From a virus, in the IMG/VR virus record IMGVR_UViG_3300043313_001570, positions 1-39,886 of that record: a stretch of DNA of 39,886 nucleotides, one strand, 5' to 3'. Numbering within the stretch: position 1 is the stretch's first letter; each line of letters opens with the position of its first letter. A program made the position numbers and the translations under genes. The notes beneath the pieces are model-generated. The model saw only the letters and a program-made list of their open reading frames with translations, was not told the DNA's origin and ran no database searches. This document shows, in pieces, positions 13 through 31,183 of the stretch.

Positions 13-230
13 CACCCGGGGGCGGCGCCCGCCGACGGGATTTGGGGAGTCAAAATTACACACCCCTGCACAAAATCGGGAATCCCGCGCAGGAGACGCC
101 AGGAACGACGAACGCGCCGGGTGAAGGGCTGACTAAGGGCGGGGCGGGGTTCGTTGTTCTGGCGCAGGCTGGTGACGGCAGGCGGGGCGCCTGACGGTGG
201 CCGTTCATGCGAAACGGGAGGATGCACGAA
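13..230. other. Non-coding left-end region
   Basis: No credible gene is seen here. The segment is rich in short GC inverted repeats (CCGGG/CCCGG near 1-20, GGCGGCGCCCGCC near 22-34). At 111-124 it carries AACGCGCCGGGTGA, a 13/14 match to AACGCGCCGGGCGA at 39869-39882, which straddles the start of the right terminal repeat. These could be terminase-binding sites flanking cos, but that is inference. Confidence 0.35.
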
Positions 231-800
231 ATGGGAAAAACGGCAGGGCTGGCCAAGGTCGGCCATATTCGAGACGTGACGGCCGACCCAGAGAACCGGC
301 GCGCGCACAACCCGCGCAACATCGGGATGCTCGCTGACGCGCTGCAGCAGGTCGGCGCGGCGCGGTCGATCGTGATTGACGAAGACGACGTCGTGCTGGC
401 GGGCAACGGCGTGCTGGAGGCGGCGGCGGAAGTCGGCATCACGAAGCTGCAGGTCATCGAGGCCGACGGGCAGACGGTCATCGCGGTGCGGCGCCGTGGG
501 TTGACCGACGAGCAGAAGCGGCGGCTCGCCATGTTCGACAACCGCGTGGCGGAACTCGCCGACTGGAACGTGGCGCAGCTGCAGGTCGACGCCGCGAGCG
601 GCCTGGATCTGGCGCCGTTTTTCTTCGACAAGGAACTCGACAAGCTGCTGAAGAGCGGCGGCGCGGGGGGCGCGGCGGTGATCGATGCGGTGCCGTCGCA
701 GTTCGTGGTCATCGTGGAGTGCGCGAGCGAGGCCGAGCAAACGGATCTGCTCACGCGACTCACCGAGGAAGGCAAGTCATGCCGCGCTGTCATGTCGTAA
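231..800 (+). CDS. ParB/sulfiredoxin-fold N-terminal domain protein
   Basis: About 189 residues. The first 110 match the ParB/Srx fold seen in many phage proteins: an NPRNIGMLADAL helix region, then VIDEDDVVLAGNGVLEAA, which corresponds to the nucleotide-binding loop (GxxRxxAA) of ParB-type domains. A helical segment with LTDEQKRRLAMFDNR follows. The start at 231 is chosen because GGGAGGA sits 8 bases upstream; in-frame ATGs at 207 and 222 lack such spacing. Phage members lie near terminase or methyltransferase genes and are thought to bind or cut DNA or act as CTPase switches. Here the stop overlaps the ATPase/acetyltransferase gene by 22 bases, implying coupled translation. The canonical GER(R) box is degenerate (GNGV), so nuclease or CTPase activity is uncertain. 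Confidence 0.75.
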   Translation: MGKTAGLAKVGHIRDVTADPENRRAHNPRNIGMLADALQQVGAARSIVIDEDDVVLAGNGVLEAAAEVGITKLQVIEADGQTVIAVRRRGLTDEQKRRLAMFDNRVAELADWNVAQLQVDAASGLDLAPFFFDKELDKLLKSGGAGGAAVIDAVPSQFVVIVECASEAEQTDLLTRLTEEGKSCRAVMS

Positions 801-1921
801 GGCGCACGCCGCTCCAGCGCACGCCGCGCGTGATGCAGCTGGAAGGGTTCTTCGATCTGCCGCCGACGGCGAGCGACCCGCTGGTGTGGCACGTCGACCT
901 GCCGATCGAGGACCGGCCCTGGGCGATCGGCTTGATTGTCGGGCCGAGCGGCGCCGGCAAGAGCACCATCGCCCGCGAAGTCTTCGGCGACCGCGTCGTC
1001 AGCGGCTTCGACTGGCCCGCCGACAAGAGCGTGGTCGACGGCTTCCCGGCGGCGCTGGGCCTGAAGGCGATCACCGCGCTGCTCTCGTCGGTCGGCTTCT
1101 CGTCGCCGCCGGCGTGGCTGCGCCCGTTCGGCGTGCTGTCGACGGGCGAGCAGTTCCGCGTCACGCTGGCCCGCGCGCTCGCCGAGGCCGGCGAGGCGGT
1201 CACCGTGATCGATGAGTTCACCAGCGTGGTCGATCGGCAGGTCGCGCAGATCGGCAGCGCCGCGGTCGCCAGCGCCGTGCGCCGCGCCAAGCAGCAGCTG
1301 GTCGCCGTGTCGTGTCACTACGACATCGAGGCATGGCTGCAGCCGGATTGGATCTACCAACCGCATCTGCAGCAGTTCGCCTGGAGGGAGCTTCAACGGC
1401 GCCCAGCCATCGATCTCGAGATCCGCCGCTGCCGCGGCGCAGCACTCTGGCCGCGCTTTCGTGCGCATCACTATCTGAACACCGAGCTACACCGCGCGGC
1501 GCGCTGCTTCGTCGCCCTGGTCAACGGCGAGCCGGTCGGCTTCACCGCGGTGTTGCCGGTGATGGGCTTCGTTGGTCAGTGGCGCGAGCATCGCACGGTG
1601 TGCCTACCGGAATTCCAAGGCGTCGGCATCGGCATGGCGCAGTCGGCGGCGGTCGCGTCGATTGCCACCGGCGCGGTGCCGGGGTGTCGCTACGCCAGCA
1701 CGACGAGCCATCCCGCGTTCATCGCCGCCAGGGCGCGCTCGCCGCTCTGGCGCATGACCCGCGCGCCGTCGATGCCGAGCCGTCAGCGCCACGGCGACGA
1801 CCTGCTGAAAAAACAAAAGGCGCGGCAGCAGCCGTCGTTTCGGCTCACCGCGTCGTTTGAATACGTCGGCGCGCCGCTCGATGCCGCGACCGCGCGCGCT
1901 CTCTGGGCCGAGCGCGTCTGA
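779..1921 (+). CDS. ABC-type ATPase fused to GNAT acetyltransferase-like domain (COG2401-like)
   Basis: About 380 residues in two domains. Residues ~40-190 form an ABC ATPase: Walker A GPSGAGKST (~55-63), a signature-like LSTGEQFRV (~120), Walker B VTVIDEFTS (~141-149) and an H-loop SCHYD (~180). Residues ~225-375 look like a GNAT fold, with the acetyl-CoA loop motif QGVGIG (~280). This order matches the family described as ABC-type ATPase fused to a predicted acetyltransferase. There is no membrane segment, so it is soluble and not a transporter. GAGGAAGG lies 6 bases before the ATG at 779. The pairing with a ParB-fold gene recurs in phages. A role in DNA or protein modification is plausible, since the Mom DNA-modification enzyme is also GNAT-like, but nothing in the sequence proves the substrate. 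Confidence 0.8.
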   Translation: MPRCHVVRRTPLQRTPRVMQLEGFFDLPPTASDPLVWHVDLPIEDRPWAIGLIVGPSGAGKSTIAREVFGDRVVSGFDWPADKSVVDGFPAALGLKAITALLSSVGFSSPPAWLRPFGVLSTGEQFRVTLARALAEAGEAVTVIDEFTSVVDRQVAQIGSAAVASAVRRAKQQLVAVSCHYDIEAWLQPDWIYQPHLQQFAWRELQRRPAIDLEIRRCRGAALWPRFRAHHYLNTELHRAARCFVALVNGEPVGFTAVLPVMGFVGQWREHRTVCLPEFQGVGIGMAQSAAVASIATGAVPGCRYASTTSHPAFIAARARSPLWRMTRAPSMPSRQRHGDDLLKKQKARQQPSFRLTASFEYVGAPLDAATARALWAERV

Positions 1922-2520: not shown

Positions 2521-2867
2521 CCGAGCGAGGCGCCAGCGATGGTGATGCCGCTGGCGCCTCGTCGGCGCGACTGACGCGCGCGGCGTGCGGCGAGTGCGGC
2601 GCCGTCGTGCGGCTCGCGGCGTGCTGGGATGCCTGGGTGTGTGCCGCGTGCGGGCACCTGTGGCGGTTAACGGGCGGCGGTCGGGTGGGCGAAGTGCAGC
2701 GTCCAGATCGGGGTGTCGTCGGTGCTGGCGGGATAGTGCGCGAGGAAGGCGGCGCGGAACTCGCGCAGCGTGGCGAAGCCGTCAGCCCGCGCGTCGGCGG
2801 CCGTGACGTCACCGAGCCGCCCCGGCACCGCGGCGGTGAGCCGCGCACGGAGGCGGCCGTTAAATGA
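2517..2867 (+). CDS. Small zinc-ribbon protein, doubtful gene
   Basis: The ATG overlaps the preceding stop (ATGA). The first 50 residues carry a believable zinc ribbon, CGECG (~24-28) and CAACGH (~42-47). The rest of the frame, from about 2675, runs antisense across the ASCH gene and looks like shadow sequence. The perfect 13-bp hairpin at 2526-2561 also lies inside its first codons. Either this is a real gene whose 3' half overlaps the convergent gene, or the Cys pattern is chance. Confidence 0.35.
   Translation: MTERGASDGDAAGASSARLTRAACGECGAVVRLAACWDAWVCAACGHLWRLTGGGRVGEVQRPDRGVVGAGGIVREEGGAELAQRGEAVSPRVGGRDVTEPPRHRGGEPRTEAAVK
2526..2561. terminator. Perfect 13-bp inverted repeat between convergent operons
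   Basis: CGAGGCGCCAGCG (2526-2538), a 10-base loop, then its exact complement (2549-2561). It lies 5 bases after the stop of the repeat-protein gene and downstream of the minus-strand operon that ends at 2667. There is no long U-tract on the plus side; on the minus side it is followed by TCATTTCTTC. The likely role is a terminator or RNA-stabilising hairpin, mainly for the minus operon. Confidence 0.55.
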
Positions 2868-2975
2868 CAGCACCGCCCCCGGTCGCAGCTTGCAGGTTTT
2901 CCACGGTCGGATCGTCGTCGTCTTCCGGCCGTCGGCAATCAGGGCCACGTAGTGCCCCTTGACGAAGATCAACAT
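2667..2975 (-). CDS. ASCH-domain protein
   Basis: 102 residues. The N-terminus MLIFVKGHYVALIADGRKT, followed by TTIRPWK, is typical of the ASCH fold: a beta strand, then the GxKxxTxR motif at ~15-23, then a region about ion-pair strength and surface loops (LRPGAVLSFNGRLRARLT). ASCH proteins resemble the PUA RNA-binding fold, and some hydrolyse acetylated cytidine, so a nucleic-acid or nucleotide role is likely. The start is set by GGAG 5 bases upstream and a one-base TGATG overlap with the upstream gene. This is the last gene of the minus-strand operon. Confidence 0.75.
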   Translation of the reverse strand: MLIFVKGHYVALIADGRKTTTIRPWKTCKLRPGAVLSFNGRLRARLTAAVPGRLGDVTAADARADGFATLREFRAAFLAHYPASTDDTPIWTLHFAHPTAAR

Positions 2976-3139
2976 CAGTACTCCGCTTGGCAGCGCGGGC
3001 AGATGATGCGCCGCTTGTCGTCGTCCCACTTCACCCGCGCGCAGCACTTCGCGCACAGCTTCGTCGTCTTCGTGAACTGGCGCGGCATCAGTCGGCGGAA
3101 GTCGTCGGCCGTCGGCCGCTTCGGCGCCGTCACCGCCAT
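2975..3139 (-). CDS. 54-residue zinc-ribbon protein
   Basis: A small gene whose start overlaps the DUF3846 stop by 10 bases and whose stop overlaps the ASCH start by one base, so it is clearly part of the operon. It has one treble-clef or ribbon-like pattern, CAKC (29-32) and CPRC (47-50), on a basic background. The family is not recognised. Possible roles are nucleic-acid binding or an adaptor. Confidence 0.7.
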   Translation of the reverse strand: MAVTAPKRPTADDFRRLMPRQFTKTTKLCAKCCARVKWDDDKRRIICPRCQAEY

Positions 3140-3429
3140 GCCTCTTGCCCCGTGACGCCTTCGTGCTCGACGCGCACCAGCAGCGCGTCACCGACGATGA
3201 CGTCCTGCACCCCCGGCAGCGCCGCATGATACAGCGCGGTCGCCGCGATGTTCACCGGCTTGCCCTTCAGTTTGCCTTCGTCGTCCACCACCAGCGCGAT
3301 GCGCGCGCCGCGCTCGACGCGCAGCGTGACGAGTTCGATCCAGCCGCCGACCTGCGTCTGCATCTGCACCAGCGTCAGCGGGCCGGGCACGTCGCGTGAT
3401 TCACCGCTGGCCGTCAACAGAGTCGCCAT
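3130..3429 (-). CDS. DUF3846 family protein
   Basis: 99 residues from the ATG at 3429. The core matches DUF3846: LVQMQTQVGGWIELVTL, an acidic turn with DDEGKLKGKPVN, then AATALYHA, then VIVGDALLV. This small alpha/beta domain is found in actinobacterial and phage genomes, often in accessory regions, and its biochemical function is unknown. An upstream extension to 3525 in the same frame reads as Arg-rich shadow sequence and is excluded. Coupled to both neighbours by short overlaps. Confidence 0.75.
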   Translation of the reverse strand: MATLLTASGESRDVPGPLTLVQMQTQVGGWIELVTLRVERGARIALVVDDEGKLKGKPVNIAATALYHAALPGVQDVIVGDALLVRVEHEGVTGQEAWR

Positions 3430-3647
3430 TACTCGGCCGCCTCGTCGTCGCGCGCCGGTGAAGTCGCGGGCGCGGGCGCCGCGTTCCACTGCCGAGTGAC
3501 CACGTCGCCATCGAAGAGCCACCACGTATTGAAGCCGTCCGCGCGCCAGCGCGCGATGGCGCGGTCAACAGCCGCCATGTCAGGGAAGCGGCGCGCGCGG
3601 CGGCTCGCCGACGATCCATCCTTGCGCGCGATAAGCCGAAAGCGCAT
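3429..3647 (-). CDS. 72-residue hypothetical protein
   Basis: Starts MRFRLIARKDGS and contains FPDMAAVDRAIARWRADGF, then TWWLFDGDVVTRQW, a small alpha/beta pattern with an acidic tail. Its TGATG start overlap with the upstream gene and its stop touching the DUF3846 start place it in the operon. No family is recognised. The shape resembles small phage domains that display a helix on a two-strand sheet. Confidence 0.65.
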   Translation of the reverse strand: MRFRLIARKDGSSASRRARRFPDMAAVDRAIARWRADGFNTWWLFDGDVVTRQWNAAPAPATSPARDDEAAE

Positions 3648-3952
3648 CACTGCACCCCCGCGGCGGCGCGCTTTTCGTTCGGCGTTTCCCAGTGCCACCC
3701 TGGCGCCTTGCAGCGGCTGTCTTGCTTGATGTCGACGTGGCCACCGCGCACCGGTTCGCCGCAGCAGTTGCACACCCGCCGCGGCCGACCCGCGCGCTTC
3801 GCATTCACCGCGCGCGCGGCATTCTGCTTGGGGGTGCCCGCTGCACCACCCTTGCGCCCGAGCAGCACCGCCGCGCGGCTCTGCGCCGCCTTGCTCGCCT
3901 TCGTCGTCGTCTTCGCCATTCTGACCGCTCCGTTAGTTGTTTGCGTTTCCAT
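3647..3952 (-). CDS. Basic zinc-binding hypothetical protein
   Basis: 101 residues. The N-terminal half is Lys/Ala-rich (AKTTTKASKAAQSRAAVLLGRKGG) and likely disordered. The C-terminal half has CNCCGEPVRGGH, KQDSRC and GWHW, a probable single zinc site. The start ATG at 3952 overlaps the upstream stop (TGATG), with AGGAG 8 bases upstream; a GTG one codon earlier is possible. A basic tail plus zinc knuckle suggests nucleic-acid contact, by inference. Confidence 0.7.
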   Translation of the reverse strand: METQTTNGAVRMAKTTTKASKAAQSRAAVLLGRKGGAAGTPKQNAARAVNAKRAGRPRRVCNCCGEPVRGGHVDIKQDSRCKAPGWHWETPNEKRAAAGVQ

Positions 3953-4143
3953 CACTGTATCTCCTGATCGGGGTTGAACTCATGGACAAATTCGCAGCCG
4001 CTGCAGAAGCCGACGCAGACGGTGGTGACCACGTCGCCGTCGACGCGCTGCGCCTGGGGGTCAATCTCCAGCGGCGCGCCGCACTCGGGGCACGTCGCGT
4101 GGTCGGCCGCGCTGACGCGGCGCCGATACTCGGGCGCCTTCAT
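3952..4143 (-). CDS. 63-residue zinc-ribbon protein
   Basis: CPECG (18-22) and CSGCEF (47-52) form a clear C4 ribbon, with VCVGFCSGC giving extra cysteines. The middle carries EIDPQAQRVDGD, a common hairpin between the two knuckles. Coupled by ATGA or TGATG overlaps to both neighbours. Function unknown; one of several zinc ribbons in the same operon. Confidence 0.7.
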   Translation of the reverse strand: MKAPEYRRRVSAADHATCPECGAPLEIDPQAQRVDGDVVTTVCVGFCSGCEFVHEFNPDQEIQ

Positions 4144-4328
4144 CGCGGCCCCTGCAGCAGCTGCGCGGCGGCGGCCTCGATGCGCAGGCAGGCGCGGCCG
4201 GCGGCGCTGTCAGGGTCGCCGAAGGCGTCAGCCGCGCGCTGCATCGCCTTCAACATGACCACGCTCACGTCGTGGTCGTCGGCGTCGAGCAGGTCGCGCA
4301 GCGCGTCGAGTAGTTGTGTCATTTCCAT
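4140..4328 (-). CDS. 62-residue helical protein
   Basis: MEMTQLLDALRDLLDADDH, then VSVVMLKAMQRAADAFGD, then ACLRIEAAAAQLLQG, predicts two or three amphipathic helices and an acidic surface. AGGAG precedes the ATG at 4328; a second ATG lies two codons in. The start shares a base with the metallopeptidase stop (TAATG). No family is recognised. It may be a partner of the peptidase, judged only from coupling. Confidence 0.6.
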   Translation of the reverse strand: MEMTQLLDALRDLLDADDHDVSVVMLKAMQRAADAFGDPDSAAGRACLRIEAAAAQLLQGPR

Positions 4329-4936
4329 TACCGTGCTCCTAACTTGATCCGTTTGGCGAAGGCGGCGGCCGACTGCACCTGCAGCGGCGCCGGTTCGGGC
4401 GCGACCCAGAAGCGGCCGTGGCCCGCGTCGAGAATCCGCCGCGCGCAGGTCTTGATCGCCGTCCATGACGTCGGCAGCGGACCGCCGCAGGGTCGCGCGG
4501 CGAACTGTTGGATGTAGTGGCGGCAGTCGGCGAGTTCGACTTCGCCCAGCTGCAGCGCGTGGCAGACGAGCAGCGCGACGGCGTCGGCCTCGAATTCCTC
4601 GATCGGGCGGCGCGCGTCGTCGCCGGTGCCGTGGACGTGGCCGAGCAGGACGTGGGCCAGTTCGTGCGCGGCGGTGCGGACCTTCAAGCGCACGCGCGCA
4701 TTCAGGGCGATGCCGTCGCGCGTGGCGAAGCCGCCGATCGTGCTGGTGCGCGCCTCGGGAAACGGCAGCAGCGCGATGCCCAGCCGCTGCATCGCCTGAT
4801 GCGTCGACCACGTCGGCGCGTTCCAGCGCGCCCAGACGAACTCTTGCCCGTCCGCTGACAGCGCGCCGCGCGGGTCGGCCGCGCCGGGCACCGTCAGCGC
4901 GGAGGCGAGAATCGCGTCCCAGCCGGTCAGCGTCAT
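4328..4936 (-). CDS. ImmA/IrrE-type zinc metallopeptidase
   Basis: 202 residues. The zincin motif is explicit: HELAH at 91-95, preceded by VRTAA and followed by VLLGH, with a downstream EEFEADAVA (114-121) giving the third ligand. This is the IrrE/ImmA (DUF955-like) arrangement. Relatives cleave repressors or regulators, as ImmA does in ICEBs1, or act with ArdC-like antirestriction proteins. The C-terminal 80 residues (CRHYIQQFAARPCGG onward) have no clear match. Placement between zinc-ribbon genes, away from the CI-like repressor, suggests its substrate is an operon partner or a host protein. That is inference. Confidence 0.8.
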   Translation of the reverse strand: MTLTGWDAILASALTVPGAADPRGALSADGQEFVWARWNAPTWSTHQAMQRLGIALLPFPEARTSTIGGFATRDGIALNARVRLKVRTAAHELAHVLLGHVHGTGDDARRPIEEFEADAVALLVCHALQLGEVELADCRHYIQQFAARPCGGPLPTSWTAIKTCARRILDAGHGRFWVAPEPAPLQVQSAAAFAKRIKLGAR

Positions 4937-5157
4937 CGCGCGCCGCCCGCGGCGAACTGCTTAAAGGCCGCCGCGTCGTCGTCGTCGTCGTCGTCCTGCG
5001 CGTCGTCGTCGTCGTCGTCGTCGTCCTGCAGCTGCGCCAGCGGGCACTTGCAGCGCGCGCAGCGCGCGTGCTGGCCGTCGGCGACGACAGCGGGCACGCG
5101 GTTCTTCTGCTGACAGTTCGGGCAGGTGACGACGGTGGCGGGGGCGGTGCTGGTCAT
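4933..5157 (-). CDS. Zinc-ribbon protein with poly-aspartate tail
   Basis: 74 residues. CPNCQQKNR (12-20) and CARCKCPL (33-40) closely resemble the N-terminal zinc ribbon of thioredoxin-2 (TrxC), but no thioredoxin domain follows. Instead there are eight Asp (45-52), AQ, then seven Asp (55-61), and a short tail. The Asp runs are encoded by GAC triplet repeats and could vary in length by slippage. The stop overlaps the peptidase start by 4 bases. An acidic tail can mimic DNA or bind basic proteins or metals; the actual role is unknown. Confidence 0.7.
   Translation of the reverse strand: MTSTAPATVVTCPNCQQKNRVPAVVADGQHARCARCKCPLAQLQDDDDDDDDAQDDDDDDDAAAFKQFAAGGAR
4975..5026. repeat. GTC/GAC triplet microsatellite
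   Basis: Two runs of GTC (GAC on the coding minus strand), separated by CTGCGC, encode the Asp8-Ala-Gln-Asp7 stretch. In-frame expansion or contraction would change only the tail length. Confidence 0.85.
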
Positions 5158-5161
5158 GGGG

Positions 5162-5632
5162 TCAACCTTTCAACTTATTGAGGCCGCGCTTGAGCGCGTC
5201 GGTGATGTCAGAGCCGGTGCTGGTGTAGTTGCCCCATTGAATCGGCGCCGAGGGCGGCGGCGGTGCAGCGGTCGGTCGGGGTCGCGGCTCATACGTCGGT
5301 CGCTTCGGCTCCGGTCGCGGCAGCGGCTCGACGTCGCGCGAGTCGGCCGGGTGCGGCGCGTCGAGCGGCGCCGTGCGCTGCGCGCCGTTCTGCTCCTGCA
5401 GGGTGGCCATCGCGCGCTCGCAGCTGCTGCGCTCGCCGCGCTTGGCTTCGTTCGACGTCGCCCAGAGCCACGACGTGCCGACCTGGGCGACGTAGCCGAA
5501 GAGGCGACCCGCGCGCGAGCGGACCGCGTAGCCCGCGACCCGACCGCCGCGGCCGGTGTCGACGGAGTGATCCTGAATCCGAAGGCCGAGGGCGGCAGCT
5601 GCGGCTGCCGCCCCGTCAACGAGGCGGCCCAT
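5162..5632 (-). CDS. Hypothetical protein with Pro-rich C-terminus
   Basis: 156 residues. Residues ~15-80 could fold (GGRVAGYAVRSRAGRLFGYV, then WLWATSNEAKRGERSSCERAMATL), a beta-sheet-plus-helix pattern. Residues ~100-135 are Pro/Arg-rich and disordered (PLPRPEPKRPTYEPRPRP). The tail, SDITDALKRGLNKLKG, is a basic amphipathic helix. The ATG overlaps the vWA stop by one base (TAATG), so the two are translated together. The family is not recognised. A linker plus terminal helix would suit an adaptor binding the vWA protein. Confidence 0.6.
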   Translation of the reverse strand: MGRLVDGAAAAAAALGLRIQDHSVDTGRGGRVAGYAVRSRAGRLFGYVAQVGTSWLWATSNEAKRGERSSCERAMATLQEQNGAQRTAPLDAPHPADSRDVEPLPRPEPKRPTYEPRPRPTAAPPPPSAPIQWGNYTSTGSDITDALKRGLNKLKG

Positions 5633-6237
5633 TACAGGCCGCCGTCGCCGAGCAGGAGGGTGATCTTGCCCTGCAGTTCCTTGGGCTTGCCCAGGTCGGC
5701 GAGGTTCGCGGTGCCGCCGGTCAGCGCCGCCAGCTCCTTGGCGAACTGCGCGCCGCGGTCGTTGCCGTCGCCGACGTAGAAAACATCGATCGGGCCGCCG
5801 AAGCTGCGCGCGGCGGCGAACGTCGCGCCCTCCGAATCCGGCTGGCCGTCGGTGACGATGACCGCGTGGTTCGCACCTTCGCGCTGGGCGAATTCAATCG
5901 CGGCGGCCATCGGCGTCGACGCCTGCGGCTCGGGCACCGACTCGACCAGCACGACGTGGCCGTGGTTCATGCCGAAGGCGGCGGTCGGGACGGGGCACTC
6001 TTCGCGCAGCGACTTGACGACGCCGCGCAGCGCGTCAATCTTCCGGCCGCCCGAGCGGATGGCTTCGGCCATCGAGCCGCTGACGTCAATCAACAGCATC
6101 GAGCGGCGCGCGCCCATGATCAGCGCGTCAAGGTCCGACTTGGCGGCCGACTTATTCAGCTTCTCGATCGCCAGCTTCTCGATGGTGGCGAGGTCGACGG
6201 TGGCGGCGGCGGTGGCGGTCGTGGTGTTGGTCGTCAT
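5632..6237 (-). CDS. von Willebrand factor A (vWA) domain protein
   Basis: 201 residues, first gene after promoter P1. The MIDAS metal site is complete: DVSGS (51-55), Thr in ASTPM (~108) and Asp in VTDGQPD (~130). The Rossmann-like strands are visible (SMLLID, HVVLVES, HAVIVTD, IDVFYVGDG). About 40 N-terminal residues are Thr/Ala-rich, then helical. There is no signal peptide, so it is cytoplasmic. Intracellular vWA proteins usually work in metal-dependent complexes (MoxR/RavA-type ATPases, TerY-like stress systems); no such ATPase is encoded beside it. It is the most conserved-looking protein of this operon. Confidence 0.85.
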   Translation of the reverse strand: MTTNTTTATAAATVDLATIEKLAIEKLNKSAAKSDLDALIMGARRSMLLIDVSGSMAEAIRSGGRKIDALRGVVKSLREECPVPTAAFGMNHGHVVLVESVPEPQASTPMAAAIEFAQREGANHAVIVTDGQPDSEGATFAAARSFGGPIDVFYVGDGNDRGAQFAKELAALTGGTANLADLGKPKELQGKITLLLGDGGL

Positions 6238-6303
6238 GGGGTCTCTTCTCTCTTCAGGTTGTGCGCGTCAGCGCGTTTGCGGTTTCAATCAATCGACTAG
6301 ATG

Positions 6304-6332
6304 ATTATGAATCGCACCGGTCCGATTGTCAA
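6304..6332 (-). promoter_or_regulatory. Promoter P1 for the minus-strand operon
   Basis: On the minus strand: TTGACA (-35, 6332-6327), a 17-base spacer, CATAAT (-10, 6309-6304). Transcription would start near 6297 and give a leader of about 60 bases before the vWA ATG. The spacer is filled by the imperfect palindrome ATCGCACCGGTCCGAT, so a bound protein would block polymerase. Confidence 0.65.
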
Positions 6333-6347
6333 TACGTTATCGGACCG
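6311..6347. promoter_or_regulatory. Composite operator of P1
   Basis: On the plus strand: ATCGCACCGGTCCGAT (6311-6326, palindromic around ACCGGT with one mismatched pair), exactly 12 bases containing the -35 box, then a half-site ATCGGACCG (6339-6347). The same layout, with the same 12-base gap, occurs at promoter P2 (6922-6958). Confidence 0.6.
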
Positions 6348-6354
6348 AGGCGGC

Positions 6355-6399
6355 GAATCTGTGCGGCAGTGTGCAAGTGCCTCGGTTTCCCTAGGGAAA
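6355..6399. repeat. 45-bp imperfect direct repeat, copy A
   Basis: Matches 7048-7091 at roughly 83% with one gap. Shared blocks are TCTGTGCGGC, GTGTGCAAGTG and a terminal TAGGGAAA. Copy A ends in the perfect palindrome TTTCCCTAGGGAAA (6386-6399). The two copies flank the 6408-6908 gene. Confidence 0.7.
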
Positions 6400-6407
6400 G
6401 CTGACCC

Positions 6408-6908
6408 TTAGAGGGCCAGCTTGATCAGTTGAATCATCGCCACGCGCAGCGCGGTGTCGGCTTCGTTCTGCATTTCCGGCGTCGGTGACGGGGCCAGCGC
6501 GCGCGTCTTCAGCAGCTTGTATTTCGCGTAGCCGTCGCGCGCGTCCTGGGTCACGCCGGTCTCGGCGAACCGCTGCACCATCGCGGCTTCCATGGCGACC
6601 ATCGCGGCCAGCTTCAGCGCGCGGTAGTTCGGCTTGGGCGTCGAGAAGGCGGGCGCCTGGGGCGGCGGCGGGGCGTAGCTGCTGGTCGCGCCGTAGCGGC
6701 GACGACGACGCGAGCGATACGTGCCGTGCCCGCTGCTGTAGCTGCTGCTGCTGGGCGGCGGCGGCGTATACGTCTGGCCCGCCTTCGCGGCCTTCGCAGC
6801 TGCGCGCTGCTGTCTCACGGTCATGCCGCCGTTTGCTTTGCGGGCGGCCACGGATGCTGCGCGTTTTGCGGCGGCAGCTGCGATTTGTTGCGGGGTCATC
6901 TTCGCCAT
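6408..6908 (-). CDS. Ala-rich basic protein with helical C-terminal domain
   Basis: 166 residues. Residues 1-45 are Ala/Lys/Arg-rich (AAAAAKRAASVAARKANGG). Residues ~46-85 are Pro/Ser-rich with a RSRRRRRYG patch and are disordered. Residues ~93-166 form a helical domain (NYRALKLAAMVAMEAAMVQR ... ADTALRVAMIQLIKLAL). The basic N-terminus could bind DNA or RNA. The gene has its own promoter P2 and no Shine-Dalgarno sequence; the predicted transcription start coincides with the ATG, so the mRNA is probably leaderless. The family is not recognised. It might be the regulator acting on P1 and P2, though no clear HTH is seen. Confidence 0.65.
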   Translation of the reverse strand: MAKMTPQQIAAAAAKRAASVAARKANGGMTVRQQRAAAKAAKAGQTYTPPPPSSSSYSSGHGTYRSRRRRRYGATSSYAPPPPQAPAFSTPKPNYRALKLAAMVAMEAAMVQRFAETGVTQDARDGYAKYKLLKTRALAPSPTPEMQNEADTALRVAMIQLIKLAL

Positions 6909-6914
6909 GAAGCA

Positions 6915-6943
6915 ATACTAAAACGGACCGGTGCGATATGCAA
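6915..6943 (-). promoter_or_regulatory. Promoter P2 (leaderless) for the 6408-6908 gene
   Basis: On the minus strand: TTGCAT (6943-6938), a 17-base spacer, TAGTAT (6920-6915). Seven bases past the -10 box is 6908, the A of the start codon. The spacer holds ATCGCACCGGTCCG, as in P1. Confidence 0.65.
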
Positions 6944-6958: not shown

Positions 6959-6971
6959 ATGGCAGGCGAAA

Positions 6972-7022
6972 TCCCTAGGGAATCCGAGGGGCCTGTCTCG
7001 AGATCGCCGGAATCCCTAGGGA
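6972..7022. repeat. Two TCCCTAGGGA palindromes 41 bp apart
   Basis: TCCCTAGGGA occurs at 6972-6981 and 7013-7022. A third perfect copy is at 6388-6397, and a degenerate one (TTTTCTTAGGGAAA) ends at 7091. Loop-less palindromes are poor terminators; they look like protein-binding sites, by inference. Confidence 0.6.
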
Positions 7023-7047
7023 ATTTCAGCCGGGCAGCGATTGCGCC

Positions 7048-7091
7048 GATTCTGTGCGGCGGTGTGCAAGTGTTTGGTTTTCTTAGGGAAA
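7048..7091. repeat. 45-bp imperfect direct repeat, copy B
   Basis: Second copy of the 6355-6399 element, ending in the degenerate palindrome TTTTCTTAGGGAAA. It lies between the minus-strand block and the terminase operon. Confidence 0.7.
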
Positions 7092-7173: not shown

Positions 7174-7701
7174 GTGCGCGGTCGAAAGCCGCTGCCGACG
7201 GACGTCAAGCGGGCGCGCGGCAACCCCGGTCACGGCCGCTTGAACGATGCCGAGCCGCGGCCGTCGGTGACCGAGGCGCTCTTCGTGCAGTTGCCGGCGG
7301 AACTCGACGGCGACGACGGCGCGCGCCAGTACTGGCTGCAGCTGGTGCCCGTGCTCCGTCTGGCGCGGCAGATCACCGATGCCGATCGCCCGCTGATGAT
7401 TGCCTTGTGCCTGGAGCAGTCGCTGTACCACGAAGCCACGCGGCGCGCGCGGGAGACGGCACTGCTGACGAAGACGAAGGGCGGCGCCGTCGTCCAGAAT
7501 CCCTACCTCGCCATCAGCCGCCGCGCGCTGATGTTCTGCGCGAAGTTGTGGGCGGAACTCGGCATGACCCCGTCGTCACGCTCGCGCGTGACCACGTCAT
7601 CGCTGGGCCGCGATGATCCCTGGGCTGAATTCGCCGACGTGCCGCCGACGCGCGCCGCCCTGCTCGATGACGACGACGACGGCGACGAGGCCACCCATTG
7701 A
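7174..7701 (+). CDS. terS: Phage terminase small subunit, P27 family
   Basis: 175 residues from a GTG with GAGGG about 9 bases upstream. The opening RGRKPLPTDVKRARGNPG is diagnostic of the P27 family, and the helical core (DRPLMIALCLEQSLYHEATRRAR, split by a short turn) fits. Recognises packaging sites and loads the large subunit. The C-terminus is unusually acidic (LLDDDDDGDEATH). The stop overlaps the TTG start of the large subunit by 4 bases. It opens the virion operon. Confidence 0.88.
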   Translation: MRGRKPLPTDVKRARGNPGHGRLNDAEPRPSVTEALFVQLPAELDGDDGARQYWLQLVPVLRLARQITDADRPLMIALCLEQSLYHEATRRARETALLTKTKGGAVVQNPYLAISRRALMFCAKLWAELGMTPSSRSRVTTSSLGRDDPWAEFADVPPTRAALLDDDDDGDEATH

Positions 7702-9404
7702 CGCGCCACGCGGCGGCTGTCATCGCCGCCATGGACAGCTACGCGCGCGGCGTGGTCGACGGCACGATCCCGGCCGGGCGCTATCACCGGCTCGCCGCCG
7801 TGCGGCACCTGCGCGACCGTCGCCGCGCGCGCGACCGCGATCCCGACTTCCCCTACTGGCTCGACGGCGAGGCGGCGGCGCGCTTCGTCCGGTTCGCCGA
7901 GCGGCTCAAGCACTACAAGGGCGCCTGGGCGGGCACACTGATCGTGCTGCAGCCGCACCAGCTGTTTCGGCTTGGCTCGCTCTTCGGCTGGAAGCACCGC
8001 GTCAGCGGGCTGCGCCGCTTCCGCACCGCGTACAACGAGATCCCGCGCAAGAACGGCAAGAGCCTGGAGGCGGCGGTCGTCGCCCTGTATGTGACGTTCT
8101 TTGATGGCGAGCGCGGCGCCGAGGGTTACTGCGCCGCGACCAAGCGCGAGCAATCGAAGATCGTATTTCGTGACGCGCGCCGCCTGATCATTTCGAGCGG
8201 CCTGCGCCGCTACGTGCAGCCGCTGGCGCACAGCCTCTTCCGCGAAGACATCGCCGCGAAGCTGGAACCGCTCGGCGCCGACTACAACAGCACCGACGGG
8301 TTGAATCCCAACCTGATCATCCTCGATGAGTTTCACGCGCTGCTCGATCGCGGCATTGTCGACGTGCTCGAAACGGCGACCGGCTCCCGACTGCAGCCGG
8401 TCATGTTCCAGATCACCACCGCCGGCACCAACCTGCTCTCGCCCTGCGGCGATCAGCATGAGTACGCCTGCAAGATTCTCGACGGCGACGTGGAGGACGA
8501 AACGTTCTTCACCTTCATCGCCCACGCCGACATCGGCGATGACTGGCGCGAACCGGCGACGTGGATCAAAGCCAACCCGAATTACGGCGTCAGCGTCTAC
8601 GAAGCCGACTTCGCCGCCCAGGTGACGAAGGCGCGCGCGCAGCCCAGCGCCGTCGCGGCGTTCCAGCAGAAGCGGTGCAACCTCTGGGTGAGCGCGGCGA
8701 CCCCCTGGCTGTCGATGGAAGGCTGGCGCGCCGGGCAATCGCCGGTGCCGTGGCCGCCGGACTATCTCGACGGGCAACCGTGCTGGGCCGGCGTCGACCT
8801 GTCGAGCAAGACCGACCTGACCGCGATCGTCCTGGCGTTCCCGCCCGAGGGGACGCGCGCGCGCTGGTGCTATCTCGGCATCGGCCTGACGCCCGACGAG
8901 ACCGTCACCGACCGCGCGCTGCGCGACCGCGTGCCGTATGCGCAGTGGATCGCCGCGGGCGTGCTGCGCACCAATCCCGGCAAGCGCATCGAGCACGCCG
9001 CCGTGCGCGACATTCTGGTGGAACTCGGCGAGCGGTACGACATTCAGGAAGTCGGCATCGATCCGTGGAACGCCGGCAACCTGCCCAACGATCTCGAGGC
9101 CGACGACTTCGTGGTCACGGAAGTGCCGCAGAACGTCGCGCAGATCAGCCAAGCGGCGAAAGAGTTTGAAGCCGACGTGCTCGACGGGCTGGTGGACACC
9201 AACAGCAACCCGCTGATGGCGCACCACGCGGCGAACGTCATCGTGCTGCGCGACTCGAAAGACAACCTGTTCCCGACGAAGAAAAAGAGCCGCGGCCGGA
9301 TCGACCTGATGGTGGCGGCGATCATCGCCCGCAAGATGGCCGGCCTGCCGGCCGACGCGGAGCCGGTCTCCGCCTACGCCGATCACGGCGTGGAGGTCGT
9401 GTGA
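7698..9404 (+). CDS. terL: Phage terminase large subunit
   Basis: 568 residues. The ATPase half has a Walker-A-like loop PRKNGKS (~116-122) and Walker B LIILDEFH (~205-212), with the adjacent ITTAG coupling motif. The nuclease half (RNase H fold) has Asp in GVDLSSKTD (~366), GIDPWN (~453) and GRIDLMVA (~535). Powers DNA translocation into the procapsid and cuts the concatemer. The type is HK97-like (Terminase_1). The TTG start at 7698 overlaps the small-subunit stop, with GAGG 7 bases upstream; no better in-frame start lies nearby. Confidence 0.93.
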   Translation: MTRHAAAVIAAMDSYARGVVDGTIPAGRYHRLAAVRHLRDRRRARDRDPDFPYWLDGEAAARFVRFAERLKHYKGAWAGTLIVLQPHQLFRLGSLFGWKHRVSGLRRFRTAYNEIPRKNGKSLEAAVVALYVTFFDGERGAEGYCAATKREQSKIVFRDARRLIISSGLRRYVQPLAHSLFREDIAAKLEPLGADYNSTDGLNPNLIILDEFHALLDRGIVDVLETATGSRLQPVMFQITTAGTNLLSPCGDQHEYACKILDGDVEDETFFTFIAHADIGDDWREPATWIKANPNYGVSVYEADFAAQVTKARAQPSAVAAFQQKRCNLWVSAATPWLSMEGWRAGQSPVPWPPDYLDGQPCWAGVDLSSKTDLTAIVLAFPPEGTRARWCYLGIGLTPDETVTDRALRDRVPYAQWIAAGVLRTNPGKRIEHAAVRDILVELGERYDIQEVGIDPWNAGNLPNDLEADDFVVTEVPQNVAQISQAAKEFEADVLDGLVDTNSNPLMAHHAANVIVLRDSKDNLFPTKKKSRGRIDLMVAAIIARKMAGLPADAEPVSAYADHGVEVV

Positions 9405-11169: not shown

Positions 11170-12181
11170 TCGATATGCGCACATCATCGCCGACGTGCGG
11201 GAGACGCCCTGGGCGATCCTGCCGACGAAGCTGCTGGCGATCACGTCGCTGCTGGAACTCCGCGCCGCCGGCCTCACGCTCAACGACGCCGACATCCGCG
11301 CGCGCATCGGCGGCGATCCGCAGGGGCGGCCCGACATCCACGTCACCGCCAACGGGGTCGGCGTGCTGCCCGTCTTCGGCGTGCTCTCGCAGCGCATGAA
11401 CATGATGGCGGCGATCAGCGGCGGCACCAGCACCGAGCAGCTGGCCGCCGACTTCCGCGCGCTGCGCGATGACCCGAAGGTCTCGGCCATCGTCCTGGCG
11501 GTCGACTCGCCGGGCGGCAGCGTCTACGGCATCGAGGAACTCGCCGACGAGATCCGCGCCAGTCGCGGCATCAAGCCGATTGTCGCCGTCGCCAGCAGCC
11601 TCGCCGCGAGCGCCGCCTACTGGCTCGCCGCCCAGGCCGACAGCGTCGTCGTCACCCCGAGCGGCGACGTCGGCAGCATCGGCGTCTTCACCGCGCATCA
11701 GGACGCCAGCGGCGCGGCCGACAAGATGGGCGTCAAGACGACGCTGATCAGCGCGGGTAAATACAAGACCGAGGGCAACCCGTTTGCGCCGCTGACGCCC
11801 GAGGCGCACGCCGCCCTGGTCGCGCGCGTCGAGGCGTGCCATGAGCGGTTCGTGGCGGGCGTGGCCGCCGGCCGCGGCGCGTCGGTCGACGCCGTGCGCA
11901 ATGGCTACGGCGAAGGTCGCGTGCTTGGTGCGCGTGCCGCCCTGGCGGCGGGACTAGTCGACCGCATCGCCACGCTCGACAGCGTGATCGCCTCTCTCGA
12001 CGCCACCGCCGCCGCGCAGCAGCTGCGCCCGGCTGGCGCGCGCGCGGCACTCCGCGCGGACACCGCTGCTCCGCTCAGTCAGTCGACCGGCACGCCGCAT
12101 GAGCCACCAGCCACCGGCCATGACCGCACGCCTGACGAAGTCTGGTTGCTCCAGTGTGAACTGGATCTGCTGGACCTGTAA
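11162..12181 (+). CDS. S49/SppA-type prohead protease
   Basis: 339 residues. The SppA/ClpP-like fold is clear: LAVDSPGG, then VASSLAASAAYW (nucleophile Ser ~151), GSIGVFTAHQ and the general-base Lys in GKYKTEGNPF (~200). It would cleave capsid-precursor delta domains during maturation, consistent with the adjacent capsid gene. The ATG overlaps the portal stop by 8 bases, with GAGG upstream. The C-terminal 60 residues are low complexity and end in a hydrophobic acidic stretch (LLQCELDLLDL). That could be a scaffold remnant, as no separate scaffold gene is present. Confidence 0.9.
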   Translation: MSDRYAHIIADVRETPWAILPTKLLAITSLLELRAAGLTLNDADIRARIGGDPQGRPDIHVTANGVGVLPVFGVLSQRMNMMAAISGGTSTEQLAADFRALRDDPKVSAIVLAVDSPGGSVYGIEELADEIRASRGIKPIVAVASSLAASAAYWLAAQADSVVVTPSGDVGSIGVFTAHQDASGAADKMGVKTTLISAGKYKTEGNPFAPLTPEAHAALVARVEACHERFVAGVAAGRGASVDAVRNGYGEGRVLGARAALAAGLVDRIATLDSVIASLDATAAAQQLRPAGARAALRADTAAPLSQSTGTPHEPPATGHDRTPDEVWLLQCELDLLDL

Positions 12182-28715: not shown

Positions 28716-29185
28716 AGCCCGCCCACCTTGAGCAGCGGGAAGTGCGCCTGCCAGTCGAAGAGCGCCGACGTGGTGCCGCGCTTGCGCACCGCCCGCACGG
28801 CATCGAGTGGCACGACGACGCCGATATAGCCCACGCCGTCGTCGTCACGCCACGTCGGATCAACCACGCGATCGTCGGCGTCGATGCACCAAGCGTGCTC
28901 CATTGGAATGATCCCGGCGGCGATGCCCTCGCAGTAGCGCAGCCGCCCGCGCGACCGCACCGCGAGGATGAAAGCGTTTTGGAAGCAGAGGCCCAACTGC
29001 CCGCGCTGCAGCCGTGGCGGGAACGGGTGCGGCGCGAACCACCGCCCGCGCTGCAGCAGGAAGTCGCCAAGGTTGCGATAGGCGTAGCCGTTGGGCCGCA
29101 CGTCGCCGCAGCGCGCGAGGATGGCCAGGTACTGCCGCAGCTGCTGCTCGACGTCGTCTGACACCAAGCGATCGGGTGCGCTCAC
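28712..29185 (-). CDS. Second Cys-His-Asp (papain/transglutaminase-like) protein
   Basis: 157 residues from a GTG that overlaps the integrase stop by 4 bases. Candidate triad: Cys67 (QLGLCFQNAF), His97 (MEHAWCID) and Asp109 (VVDPTW). YCEGIA and PMEHAW ... VVDPTW are typical of a widespread uncharacterised family with this fold. Its sequence is not similar to the first Cys-His-Asp protein. Expressed with the integrase, so probably a lysogeny-associated accessory gene. Confidence 0.6.
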   Translation of the reverse strand: MSAPDRLVSDDVEQQLRQYLAILARCGDVRPNGYAYRNLGDFLLQRGRWFAPHPFPPRLQRGQLGLCFQNAFILAVRSRGRLRYCEGIAAGIIPMEHAWCIDADDRVVDPTWRDDDGVGYIGVVVPLDAVRAVRKRGTTSALFDWQAHFPLLKVGGL

Positions 29186-30357
29186 TTCGACGCCACCAAC
29201 CGCAGCCCGTCGGCCGCGGGCGGTGGCGCGGGTGCTTCGTCCCAGAGGTTGATCGCCGCGACCATCCTGGCGTCCGTCGACCCGATGCCGTAGCGGCGCT
29301 CGATCAGCGCGCTGCCGCCAGTCTGCTGCAGCAGCTTCGCCACGGCATCCGCGCGTGCGCCCTTCTGCATCAGCGCGGTGGCAAACGAGTGGCGCAGGTC
29401 GTAGGGGTGACACGCGGGCGGCAGGTTCTGCAGCAGCGCGAGCATCGCCTGATCGTTGGCGCGCCGCGCGCGGTTGGTCTCGCGCTCGATCGCGCGCTGC
29501 CACACGCCGCGGTAGCCGCCCCGCGAGAACGTCTGGCCCCAGAGGTTCGCGGCATCGTAGTCGCACAGCGCGGCGACGGCTTCATCGTTGAGCGGCAGCC
29601 ACGCCCCGGCGCGCGGGTTGGCGCTCTGCTTGCCCTTGCGGCGCGGTCGCCCGTAGAGGCGCTTGCTGATCGGATCAAAATCCTTCCGCTGCATCCGTTC
29701 GATCTGCGCGGGCGGCAGCGCGGCCCACGCCATCAGCCGCAGGCGGATCTTGGAGGCATTGAACGACAGGCGGCCGACCCCTTTGACGGCGCGGCCGAAG
29801 TCGGGCATCCCAGCGAACAGCGCGCGGATCAACACGTAGGGAATATCGCGCGGCTCCAAGGCTGGCCCCGGCAGCGACTTGATCCGCGCCGTCGGGTTGC
29901 GCGCGTCGAGACCATCGAGCGCGTCGTACAGCGCGCGCAGGCGCTGCACCCGTTTATCGATCAGCGCGTTACTACAGGTGCCGTGCCACGCCGACATCTG
30001 GGCGAGCACGTCGGCCCGGCTGATCGCATGGCGCGGCGTCTCGCCGAGCACGACCAGCCACGGTCGCAGTTCACTCAGCGCGCGCTGGTGTCGCGTGACG
30101 GCCAGCGTCTTCAGGAATTCCGGCACGTCGGCGGCGAGCGTGCCGCGGTTCGCGGCCGTCGGCGCGCGCATCGCCAGTTCGCCGACCAGCTGCTTCCGTC
30201 GGGCGATCAACCGCTTCAGCCCGCCCGGCTGATCGAGCGTGTCGAGCGGGTACTTCTCTTCCACCGCCCTGAGACCGGGCGCCGAGGCGCGCAGGATGAT
30301 GCGATAGCGGTCCGCGTAGATCCCGGTCGCCAGTGTCTTAGAATTCTTCGTCGCCAT
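29182..30357 (-). CDS. int: Tyrosine-type site-specific integrase
   Basis: 391 residues. N-terminal arm and core-binding regions to ~170, catalytic domain after. Visible: HPYDLRH (~317-323, giving His and Arg) and nucleophile Tyr in IERRYG (~354). Unusual: where most members have TGxRxxE, this one reads WAALPPAQIERM (~208-220), and the second His/Trp before the Tyr (LGH) is replaced by QTGGS. GAAAGG lies 5 bases before the ATG. Integrates and, with an excisionase, excises the genome. Confidence 0.88.
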   Translation of the reverse strand: MATKNSKTLATGIYADRYRIILRASAPGLRAVEEKYPLDTLDQPGGLKRLIARRKQLVGELAMRAPTAANRGTLAADVPEFLKTLAVTRHQRALSELRPWLVVLGETPRHAISRADVLAQMSAWHGTCSNALIDKRVQRLRALYDALDGLDARNPTARIKSLPGPALEPRDIPYVLIRALFAGMPDFGRAVKGVGRLSFNASKIRLRLMAWAALPPAQIERMQRKDFDPISKRLYGRPRRKGKQSANPRAGAWLPLNDEAVAALCDYDAANLWGQTFSRGGYRGVWQRAIERETNRARRANDQAMLALLQNLPPACHPYDLRHSFATALMQKGARADAVAKLLQQTGGSALIERRYGIGSTDARMVAAINLWDEAPAPPPAADGLRLVASK

Positions 30358-30564: not shown

Positions 30565-30930
30565 GTGCCACGATCCGCGCCCGCGTCCTCGTCGTCCTCG
30601 TCGGCCGACTTTCCGCTCACCGTGGCGGAGCGCTGTGAGTCGGTCAGTCTCCTGCTCACGTTGGCCTTATCGCTCCGCATCCCGATCACCGCGCCGCTGG
30701 TGACGGACCTGGGCGATCCGCGCGCCTTTACCGCGCTGGTCGACGCGCTGCTGCGCGACCTACCGGCGCCGGTGCAGGCGGCGGCGGCAGATCTTTTGTG
30801 CGTCCAGTTGATAGAGGCGGCAGCGCGGCCAAGGCCGATTGTGTTACGGCCATCAATGCTACGTGCCGCCGCTGCAAAGCCGGCGACAGGCCGCGGTAAA
30901 ACTTCAGCAACTGCCGTTCGTCCGCAGTAA
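30565..30930 (+). CDS. Hypothetical protein convergent with the repressor
   Basis: 121 residues from a GTG with a strong AGGAGG 7 bases upstream. A Ser run (ASSSSSSADF) is followed by helices: ERCESVSLLLTLALSLRI, FTALVDALLRDLPAPV, AAADLLCVQLIEAAA. The last ~65 codons run antisense to the end of the repressor gene. The Shine-Dalgarno and natural composition support it. No family recognised. Confidence 0.5.
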   Translation: MPRSAPASSSSSSADFPLTVAERCESVSLLLTLALSLRIPITAPLVTDLGDPRAFTALVDALLRDLPAPVQAAAADLLCVQLIEAAARPRPIVLRPSMLRAAAAKPATGRGKTSATAVRPQ

Positions 30931-31183
30931 GCGTCTCGCCGTTCGTCGCGCTCGCGTGACCGCGGAGTCGGTCGTACGGCGTCTCAACGCCGTGCAGCAG
31001 GTCGGCGGTGGTGCAACCGATCGCCGTCGCCAGCTTGATCATCGTCTTCGGGCCGGGAAACTTGTGGCCATGTTCCCAGATCGACAACGGCGTGGTGCGC
31101 TTGAACTTCAGGCGCTCGGCTAGCTGACCTTGCGATAGCTGCGCGCGCTCGCGCGCGGCGCGGAGATTCTCACCAAACGTCAT
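30728..31183 (-). CDS. Cro/CI-type (XRE) transcriptional repressor
   Basis: 151 residues. HTH at residues ~4-60: LRAARERAQLSQGQLAERL, then SIWEHGHKFPGPKTMIKLA and CTTADLL, the standard XRE form. Residues ~80-115 form a helical dimerisation segment (ERQLLKFYRGLSPALQRR). There is no LexA/CI-type peptidase domain, so induction would not be by RecA-driven self-cleavage. The tail is Pro/Ala/Arg-rich. Divergent from the early operon across a 180-base operator region; likely the immunity repressor. Confidence 0.8.
   Translation of the reverse strand: MTFGENLRAARERAQLSQGQLAERLKFKRTTPLSIWEHGHKFPGPKTMIKLATAIGCTTADLLHGVETPYDRLRGHASATNGETLTADERQLLKFYRGLSPALQRRHVALMAVTQSALAALPPLSTGRTKDLPPPPAPAPVGRAAARRPAR

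Follow-up and report, generated by a model that had tools for sequence, protein, structure and literature searches.

In group 2.2 jumbo phages, a MoxR-vWA pair has been described together with a metallopeptidase that is fused to the vWA domain, and metallopeptidases of patchy distribution among phages were proposed to act on host proteins (PMC7824862). This pair is the closest published kind to the locus reported here, a vWA-centred gene island of a bacterial virus whose full IMG/VR record (IMGVR_UViG_3300043313_001570; 39,886 bases) is referred to as the window. The two share a phage vWA protein with a metal ion-dependent adhesion site (MIDAS) and a metallopeptidase partner. They differ in that the vWA protein and the peptidase of the island are encoded by separate genes, which are accompanied by g166, g156 and an acidic zinc ribbon and have ligase and repair genes as neighbours. 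A MoxR/AAA_5 partner is not found in the window, and elsewhere only short P-loop matches were obtained. The core of the island is present in many different uncultured phages under a shared control site, and literature searches returned no paper on this gene set.

Further systems share single features with the island. Peptidase M78 (ImmA/IrrE) is similar in its HExxH motif and a downstream Glu-rich helix and gives weak matches. In contrast, the peptidase of the island falls under the Pfam cut-off, has no recognised helix-turn-helix (HTH) repressor adjacent to it and carries a conserved C-terminal tail. The likeness to bacterial non-homologous end joining (Ku, LigD) consists of an ATP-dependent ligase, present beside the module in 9 of 23 relatives, and of Ku, present there in one; unlike that system and eukaryotic Ku70/80, the window is without Ku or ligase and the vWA domain has no Ku core attached. 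The vWA profile also reaches TROVE structures of the Ro60 type weakly (E about 0.13-0.28), whereas the 201-aa vWA protein leaves no space for a TROVE domain.

Recurrence of the core module

When the twelve island proteins were compared by tblastn with 80 TerL-related contigs, L022 alone carried the core, with its gene order broadly kept (g166, 44% identical; vWA, 56%; an acid-tailed ribbon, g156 and a peptidase). Single-sequence scans with vWA, the HExxH protein and DUF3846 yielded only the same phage and one short HExxH match, and alignments were needed to go further. Profile scans with vWA added L084, L086 and L097-L111. An independent scan with the profile of the zincin, the peptidase of the relatives, recovered the same loci and six new triads (L128, which is close to L106, L132, L140, L142, L143 and L147). 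A near-identical contig of 9.1 kb, L002, represents the same phage and was not counted as an independent witness. The core recurs in 22-23 further vWA-bearing phage contigs; g166 is present in all of them, and the zincin wherever the contig extends far enough (L099, L107 and L109 stop too early). In the 38 kb record L084, almost the entire island is present between ABC/GNAT-ParB and TerS with the relative orientation kept, comprising g166, vWA (58% identity), ribbon, g156, zincin, DUF3846, a ribbon, Cys102 (64%) and ASCH (56%). g166, vWA and the zincin stay joined down to about 37% vWA identity, across different phage types.

The vWA gene was found in none of 43 other records searched, almost all of which are TerL-related and many fragmentary; close phage kinship therefore does not explain the pattern of co-occurrence. 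More distant zincins occur without vWA, which was found in none of 15 such records, and the reverse scan reaches only as far as the sensitivity of tblastn. Searches from both the vWA and the zincin side gave linked homologues rather than scattered ones. The initial annotation had put forward, as a hypothesis, that the island is a metal-centred multi-protein system. Co-occurrence holds for g166, vWA, zincin, g156 and the acidic zinc ribbon and not for the full twelve, so that a conserved set stands as a unit smaller than the island; "metal-centred" is a fair description of the vWA-MIDAS and the zincin. The core parts escape Pfam, PHROGs, NCBIfam and PADLOC. The module is reproducible and multi-gene, and offers testable parts: a putative metal-dependent hub and a peptidase, a predicted three-helix domain of a new kind, an operator common to several phages and a DNA ligase that recurs nearby.

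Core proteins and the shared operator

As initially annotated, the MIDAS of the vWA protein is complete: D51-x-S53-x-S55, T108 and D130 are invariant in an alignment across 18 homologues. The vWA protein and the metallopeptidase are separate open reading frames (ORFs) at all loci, and no fusion was observed. Four Cys-rich proteins are encoded in the island, one of which ends in a tail of 15 Asp residues, arranged as 8+7. Homologous ribbons with acidic tails are present in L084, L098 and L102-L105, and in L086, L110, L111, L140, L143 and L147 the acidic tail is carried by the vWA protein itself. This alternation, in which the tail sits on the ribbon or on vWA depending on the phage, links the functions of the two proteins. 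vWA was not found in the sequenced prokaryote genomes searched, and cultured phages returned distant vWAs only. A distant relative (37%) is encoded on the Pectobacterium plasmid CP036162.1 (15031-15636); the other genes of its operon are hypothetical, and genes for an ArdK regulator and a replication protein lie nearby.

The HExxH motif of the window peptidase is located at residues 91-95. The protein scores 18.8 bits against Pfam M78, for which the cut-off is 22, and weak matches to PHROG 87 metallo-protease/M78 were obtained with it and with one zincin relative. The zincin matches no Pfam metallopeptidase family, and none of 14 zincin relatives matches M78. In alignment A12 of the zincins, H65, E66, H69 and E95 are invariant, corresponding to HExxH and a downstream acidic zinc ligand. 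The AlphaFold2 model of the L102 protein (predicted local distance difference test, pLDDT, 88) shows a helix, strands, the HExxH helix and a Glu helix; in a Foldseek comparison of a relative's model with the PDB, nothing was below E 0.001, and the weak top matches were mostly other zincins. The zincin profile weakly reaches prophage proteins of the ImmA type that are encoded next to HTH genes. Orthology of the window peptidase and the relatives' zincin was considered and rejected, as no homology was detectable outside HExxH. The two occupy the same slot and have in common the C-terminal tail FAK-x-h-K/R (window, ...AAAFAKRIKLGAR; L100, ...VATFAKQIRWGPR; L022, ...VAAFAKTVKWSK), from which we infer a retained tail on a catalytic domain that would have diverged or been exchanged in the window peptidase.

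g166 combines a variable N-terminal part with a conserved C-terminal domain. The latter is modelled by AlphaFold2 as a bundle of three helices (pLDDT 89.6) and, with nothing below E 0.001 against the PDB in Foldseek, is predicted to be a new domain; DUF2786 gave a single weak match (E 0.029) and is not claimed. Judged by eye, the N-terminal part differs among phages, being basic, Cys-ribbon-like in L086, L140, L142 and L143, or winged-helix-like in L147. g156 ends in the helix motif hxW...DLTAAIxAAL in an alignment of 15 sequences; its Pfam matches to DUF2188/DUF6303 lie under the cut-off and are not claimed. Similar versions of a basic Ala/Lys/Arg helix motif, AAxKRAxxxAxKAxGxTxRxxRAAxKAxKAG, are found in the N-termini of several different operon proteins, including g166 and Cys102, and upstream of g166 in L106, L108 and L128. 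The motif is possibly a DNA-binding or targeting segment that these proteins share.

The motif A-Y-C-N-G-A-S-C-G-S-T-C-C-G-N-T, a putative operator, occurs in the spacers of the g166 and/or vWA promoters of about nine phages, among them the relatives L084, L098 (twice), L100, L102, L103, L107, L109 and L132 (twice); no copy was found in L022 or L097. By score alone, the sites of the window do not stand out in a scan of the whole genome or against 40 kb of random sequence, and the argument for a predicted operator is its position across phages, not its score. The possibility that it is the operator of the phage repressor was rejected, since a search of the Xre region (30.9-31.4 kb) did not yield the motif. 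The TTCCCTAGGGAA-type palindromes around both island promoters are absent from the relatives' loci examined and, among these loci, specific to the window phage.

Proposed action on DNA and alternative explanations

We favour, with somewhat less than even confidence, the reading that the core is a mobile, co-regulated vWA-centred phage module acting on DNA, most likely where replicating phage DNA ends, is broken or is joined, because ligase, Ku and repair genes adjoin it in relatives. An ATP-dependent DNA ligase (PF01068) is encoded in 9 of the 23 vWA-bearing records, always 0.5-3.2 kb from vWA, and this closeness corresponds to a Fisher-combined p of about 0.003 (seven records over 20 kb). None of 12 TerL-related controls has the ligase (hypergeometric p about 0.012, for groups that are unlike in kinship and completeness), and L086 carries a tenth, partial ligase slightly under the cut-off. 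Ku is located 1.3 kb from vWA in the record of L142, one of the 23, and the neighbourhoods also contain MgsA_C, SWIM, SNF2 and UDG-family domains. Inspected by eye, more distant phage vWAs stand beside RecT-like, ERCC4-like, Cas4-like and DnaJ-like genes; annotated dnaJ, repA and resolvase genes lie near the distant vWA in MW202444.

In a module that acts on DNA, the vWA protein would be the metal-dependent hub. g166 would dock via its conserved three-helix domain, and its N-terminal part, which varies between phages, would bring the complex to DNA. The acidic tail, whether carried by the ribbon protein or, elsewhere, by vWA itself, would shield or complete the vWA/DNA-binding surface. C-terminal motifs would tether the zincin and g156 to the hub. 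The zincin could then cleave a protein at the DNA end, which may be a blocking protein, a defence factor or a complex member, and ligation would follow by the phage ATP-dependent ligase where present and by the host ligase for the window phage. A repressor on the spacer operator would hold the module off until needed. If the module handles DNA ends, it would reveal how genomes are protected or joined in phages that lack Ku-LigD.

Several observations weigh against this reading. For none of the members is there an experimentally characterised homologue near enough for transfer of function, and most relatives are contig fragments. The search of the window revealed neither ligase nor Ku, so that the window phage would have to rely on a ligase of its host, and most of the compact relatives are also without ligase. 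Phage replication genes cluster anyway, which makes the nearness of the ligase weak functional evidence. Moreover, Ku is encoded at 11645-12127 of G021 (the record of L039, 40.8 kb), whose TerL is related to that of the window and in which no module was found.

The best rival, to which we assign a minor probability, is a peptidase-controlled switch of the IrrE/DdrO or ImmA/ImmR type, in which the peptidase cleaves an operator-bound repressor after a signal and derepresses the operon, with vWA and g166 sensing or holding the repressor. The M78-like match of the window protein, the reach of the zincin profile to ImmA-type proteins adjoining an HTH gene, and the conserved operator placed exactly in the g166 and vWA promoter spacers, with related sites at Cys102, argue for such a switch. 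However, Pfam and PHROG family scans recognised no HTH gene in the window module, the Xre region does not show the operator motif, and the operators are unremarkable by score in the whole-genome scan. The switch could be part of the same system as the DNA-end function; if the module is a protease switch, it would give IrrE-type control a counterpart in phages.

Host takeover, anti-defence and superinfection control, the functions suggested initially, found no support. A complex in which the peptidase destroys a host defence or regulator, with vWA as substrate adaptor, is unlikely. It would fit the accessory, sporadic distribution and the host-protein targets proposed for patchy phage metallopeptidases (PMC7824862), but among the island proteins scanned with PADLOC none had a credible match (only a weak one to peptidase_U41, E 0.015), and the neighbours are DNA-repair rather than anti-defence genes, pointing to DNA ligation and repair.

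A stronger form of the favoured reading, to which we give a low probability, is that the module is a previously unnamed phage system for repair and joining of DNA ends. Its vWA hub would recruit an adaptor that binds DNA, a zinc peptidase that would clear ends of protein and, in numerous phages, Ku or an ATP-dependent ligase. The functional parallel is the eukaryotic Ku70/80 vWA hub, whose partners carry Ku-binding motifs, an analogy to a vWA hub with short C-terminal partner motifs. A loose accessory operon, whose genes are selected separately and do no joint work, is improbable: DUF3846, ASCH, Cys102, g62 and g73 do come and go, but g166, vWA and the zincin remain together in different phage types even at the lowest vWA identity given above. 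A virion-assembly chaperone or protease like the jumbo-phage pair is highly improbable despite the same vWA and metallopeptidase partnership (PMC7824862) and the terminase genes adjoining the island, because it lacks the AAA+ partner (the 24 records scanned gave five short sub-domain matches, one of them barely over the cut-off, and nothing convincing for AAA_5/MoxR) and the module lies among ligase and replication genes in divergent relatives.

Companion genes and surroundings

Table 1. Coordinates of the island genes, control sites and flanking features in the window.
Feature	Position	Strand	Remarks
g166	6408-6908	minus	core; basic Arg/Pro-rich N-terminus, conserved C-terminal three-helix domain
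vWA	5632-6237	minus	core; stand-alone, complete MIDAS; weak Pfam vWA matches under cut-off
g156	5162-5632	minus	frequent; small W/G-patterned domain, Pro-rich linker, conserved C-terminal helix motif
Zinc ribbon with Asp tail	4933-5157	minus	frequent; CxxC...CxxC
HExxH (M78/ImmA-like) peptidase	4328-4936	minus	zincin slot; Pfam M78 E 1.5e-3, under cut-off
g62	4140-4328	minus	small helical protein; no credible family match; relatives only within same phage
ZR63	3952-4143	minus	loose companion; Cys-rich ribbon; weak homologues in L022, L100, L106
Cys102	3647-3955 (ORF list ~3950)	minus	loose companion; Cys-rich, basic N-terminus
g73	3429-3647	minus	no family match
DUF3846 protein	3130-3429	minus	loose companion; PHROG 3777 3.8e-14; homologues L023, L024, L051, L084
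ZR54	2975-3139	minus	loose companion; Cys-rich ribbon (sequence)
ASCH-domain protein	2667-2975	minus	loose companion; last gene
vWA operon promoter	6304-6332	minus	TTGACA-17-CATAAT; 11/12 sigma-70 consensus matches
Palindromic operator (putative) ATCGGACCGGTGCGAT	6311-6326		-35/-10 spacer of vWA promoter; fits spacer motif of relatives
Second operator copy	6922-6937		spacer of g166 promoter TTGCAT-17-TAGTAT
22-bp repeat CACTTGCACACYGCCGCACAGA	6358-6379	minus	upstream of vWA promoter; second copy 7051-7072; far above chance
Four TTCCCTAGGGAA-type palindromes	6387-6398, 6971-6982, 7012-7023, 7079-7090		around both island promoters; far above chance
ParB-like	207-800	plus	flank of island opposite TerS/TerL
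ABC/GNAT	719-1921	plus	same flank as ParB-like
Gly-rich protein	1999-2520	plus	same flank as ParB-like
TerS	7174-7701	plus	flank of island
TerL	7698-9404	plus	flank of island
Integrase-like	29182-30357	minus	Phage_integrase E 7e-5, slightly under cut-off
HTH repressor	30728-31183	minus	

ORF lists and sequence agree that twelve minus-strand genes (2667-6908) interrupt a plus-strand order that continues on both sides. Stop/start overlaps of 1-10 nt (TAATG/TGATG/ATGA) are present at 9 of the 10 junctions within 2667-6237, the remaining one being a 4-nt gap, and g166 stands apart from vWA by 170 bp. The initial annotation took the overlaps to imply fixed stoichiometry, which does not follow; they fit, and suggest, translational coupling alone.

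DUF3846, ASCH and Cys102 are looser companions outside the core, DUF3846 and Cys102 being present also in phages without detected vWA. Both domain assignments were borne out by Pfam (DUF3846, 1e-11, 45.3 vs 27.5 bits cut-off; ASCH, E 2.5e-7, 31.8 vs 21.2 bits cut-off), and an ASCH homologue closes the island in L084, L102, L105, L106 and L108. Cys102 homologues (about 47-64% identical) are found in many phages, including ones without vWA. An operator-like site (3919-3934) is located at an internal start of Cys102; because related sites directly precede that start codon in several phages, the true start is probably the internal Met at ~3920. A protein conserved in the same operon, the "296" family, is encoded in L022 (6023-6913), L103, L106, L108 and L128; its likeness by eye to a DnaN-like sliding clamp has no Pfam or PDB support and is not claimed.

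The window phage is apparently a temperate siphovirus. Possible prophage hosts were looked for in genome contigs, where the vWA scan gave none and the TerL scan gave only 35-37% relatives, in metagenome-assembled genomes. On the flank opposite the terminase (207-1921, plus strand), the ParB-like gene is followed by an ABC-type ATPase joined to a GNAT acetyltransferase in one protein. The ParB neighbour at the corresponding slot of L022 is a TET-associated glycosyltransferase (TAGT), and because of this occupant the slot may be a DNA-hypermodification cassette. The Gly-rich protein that follows, which has no family match, contains several repeats of the PDNSLPG type, which are encoded by direct repeats of 33 bp.

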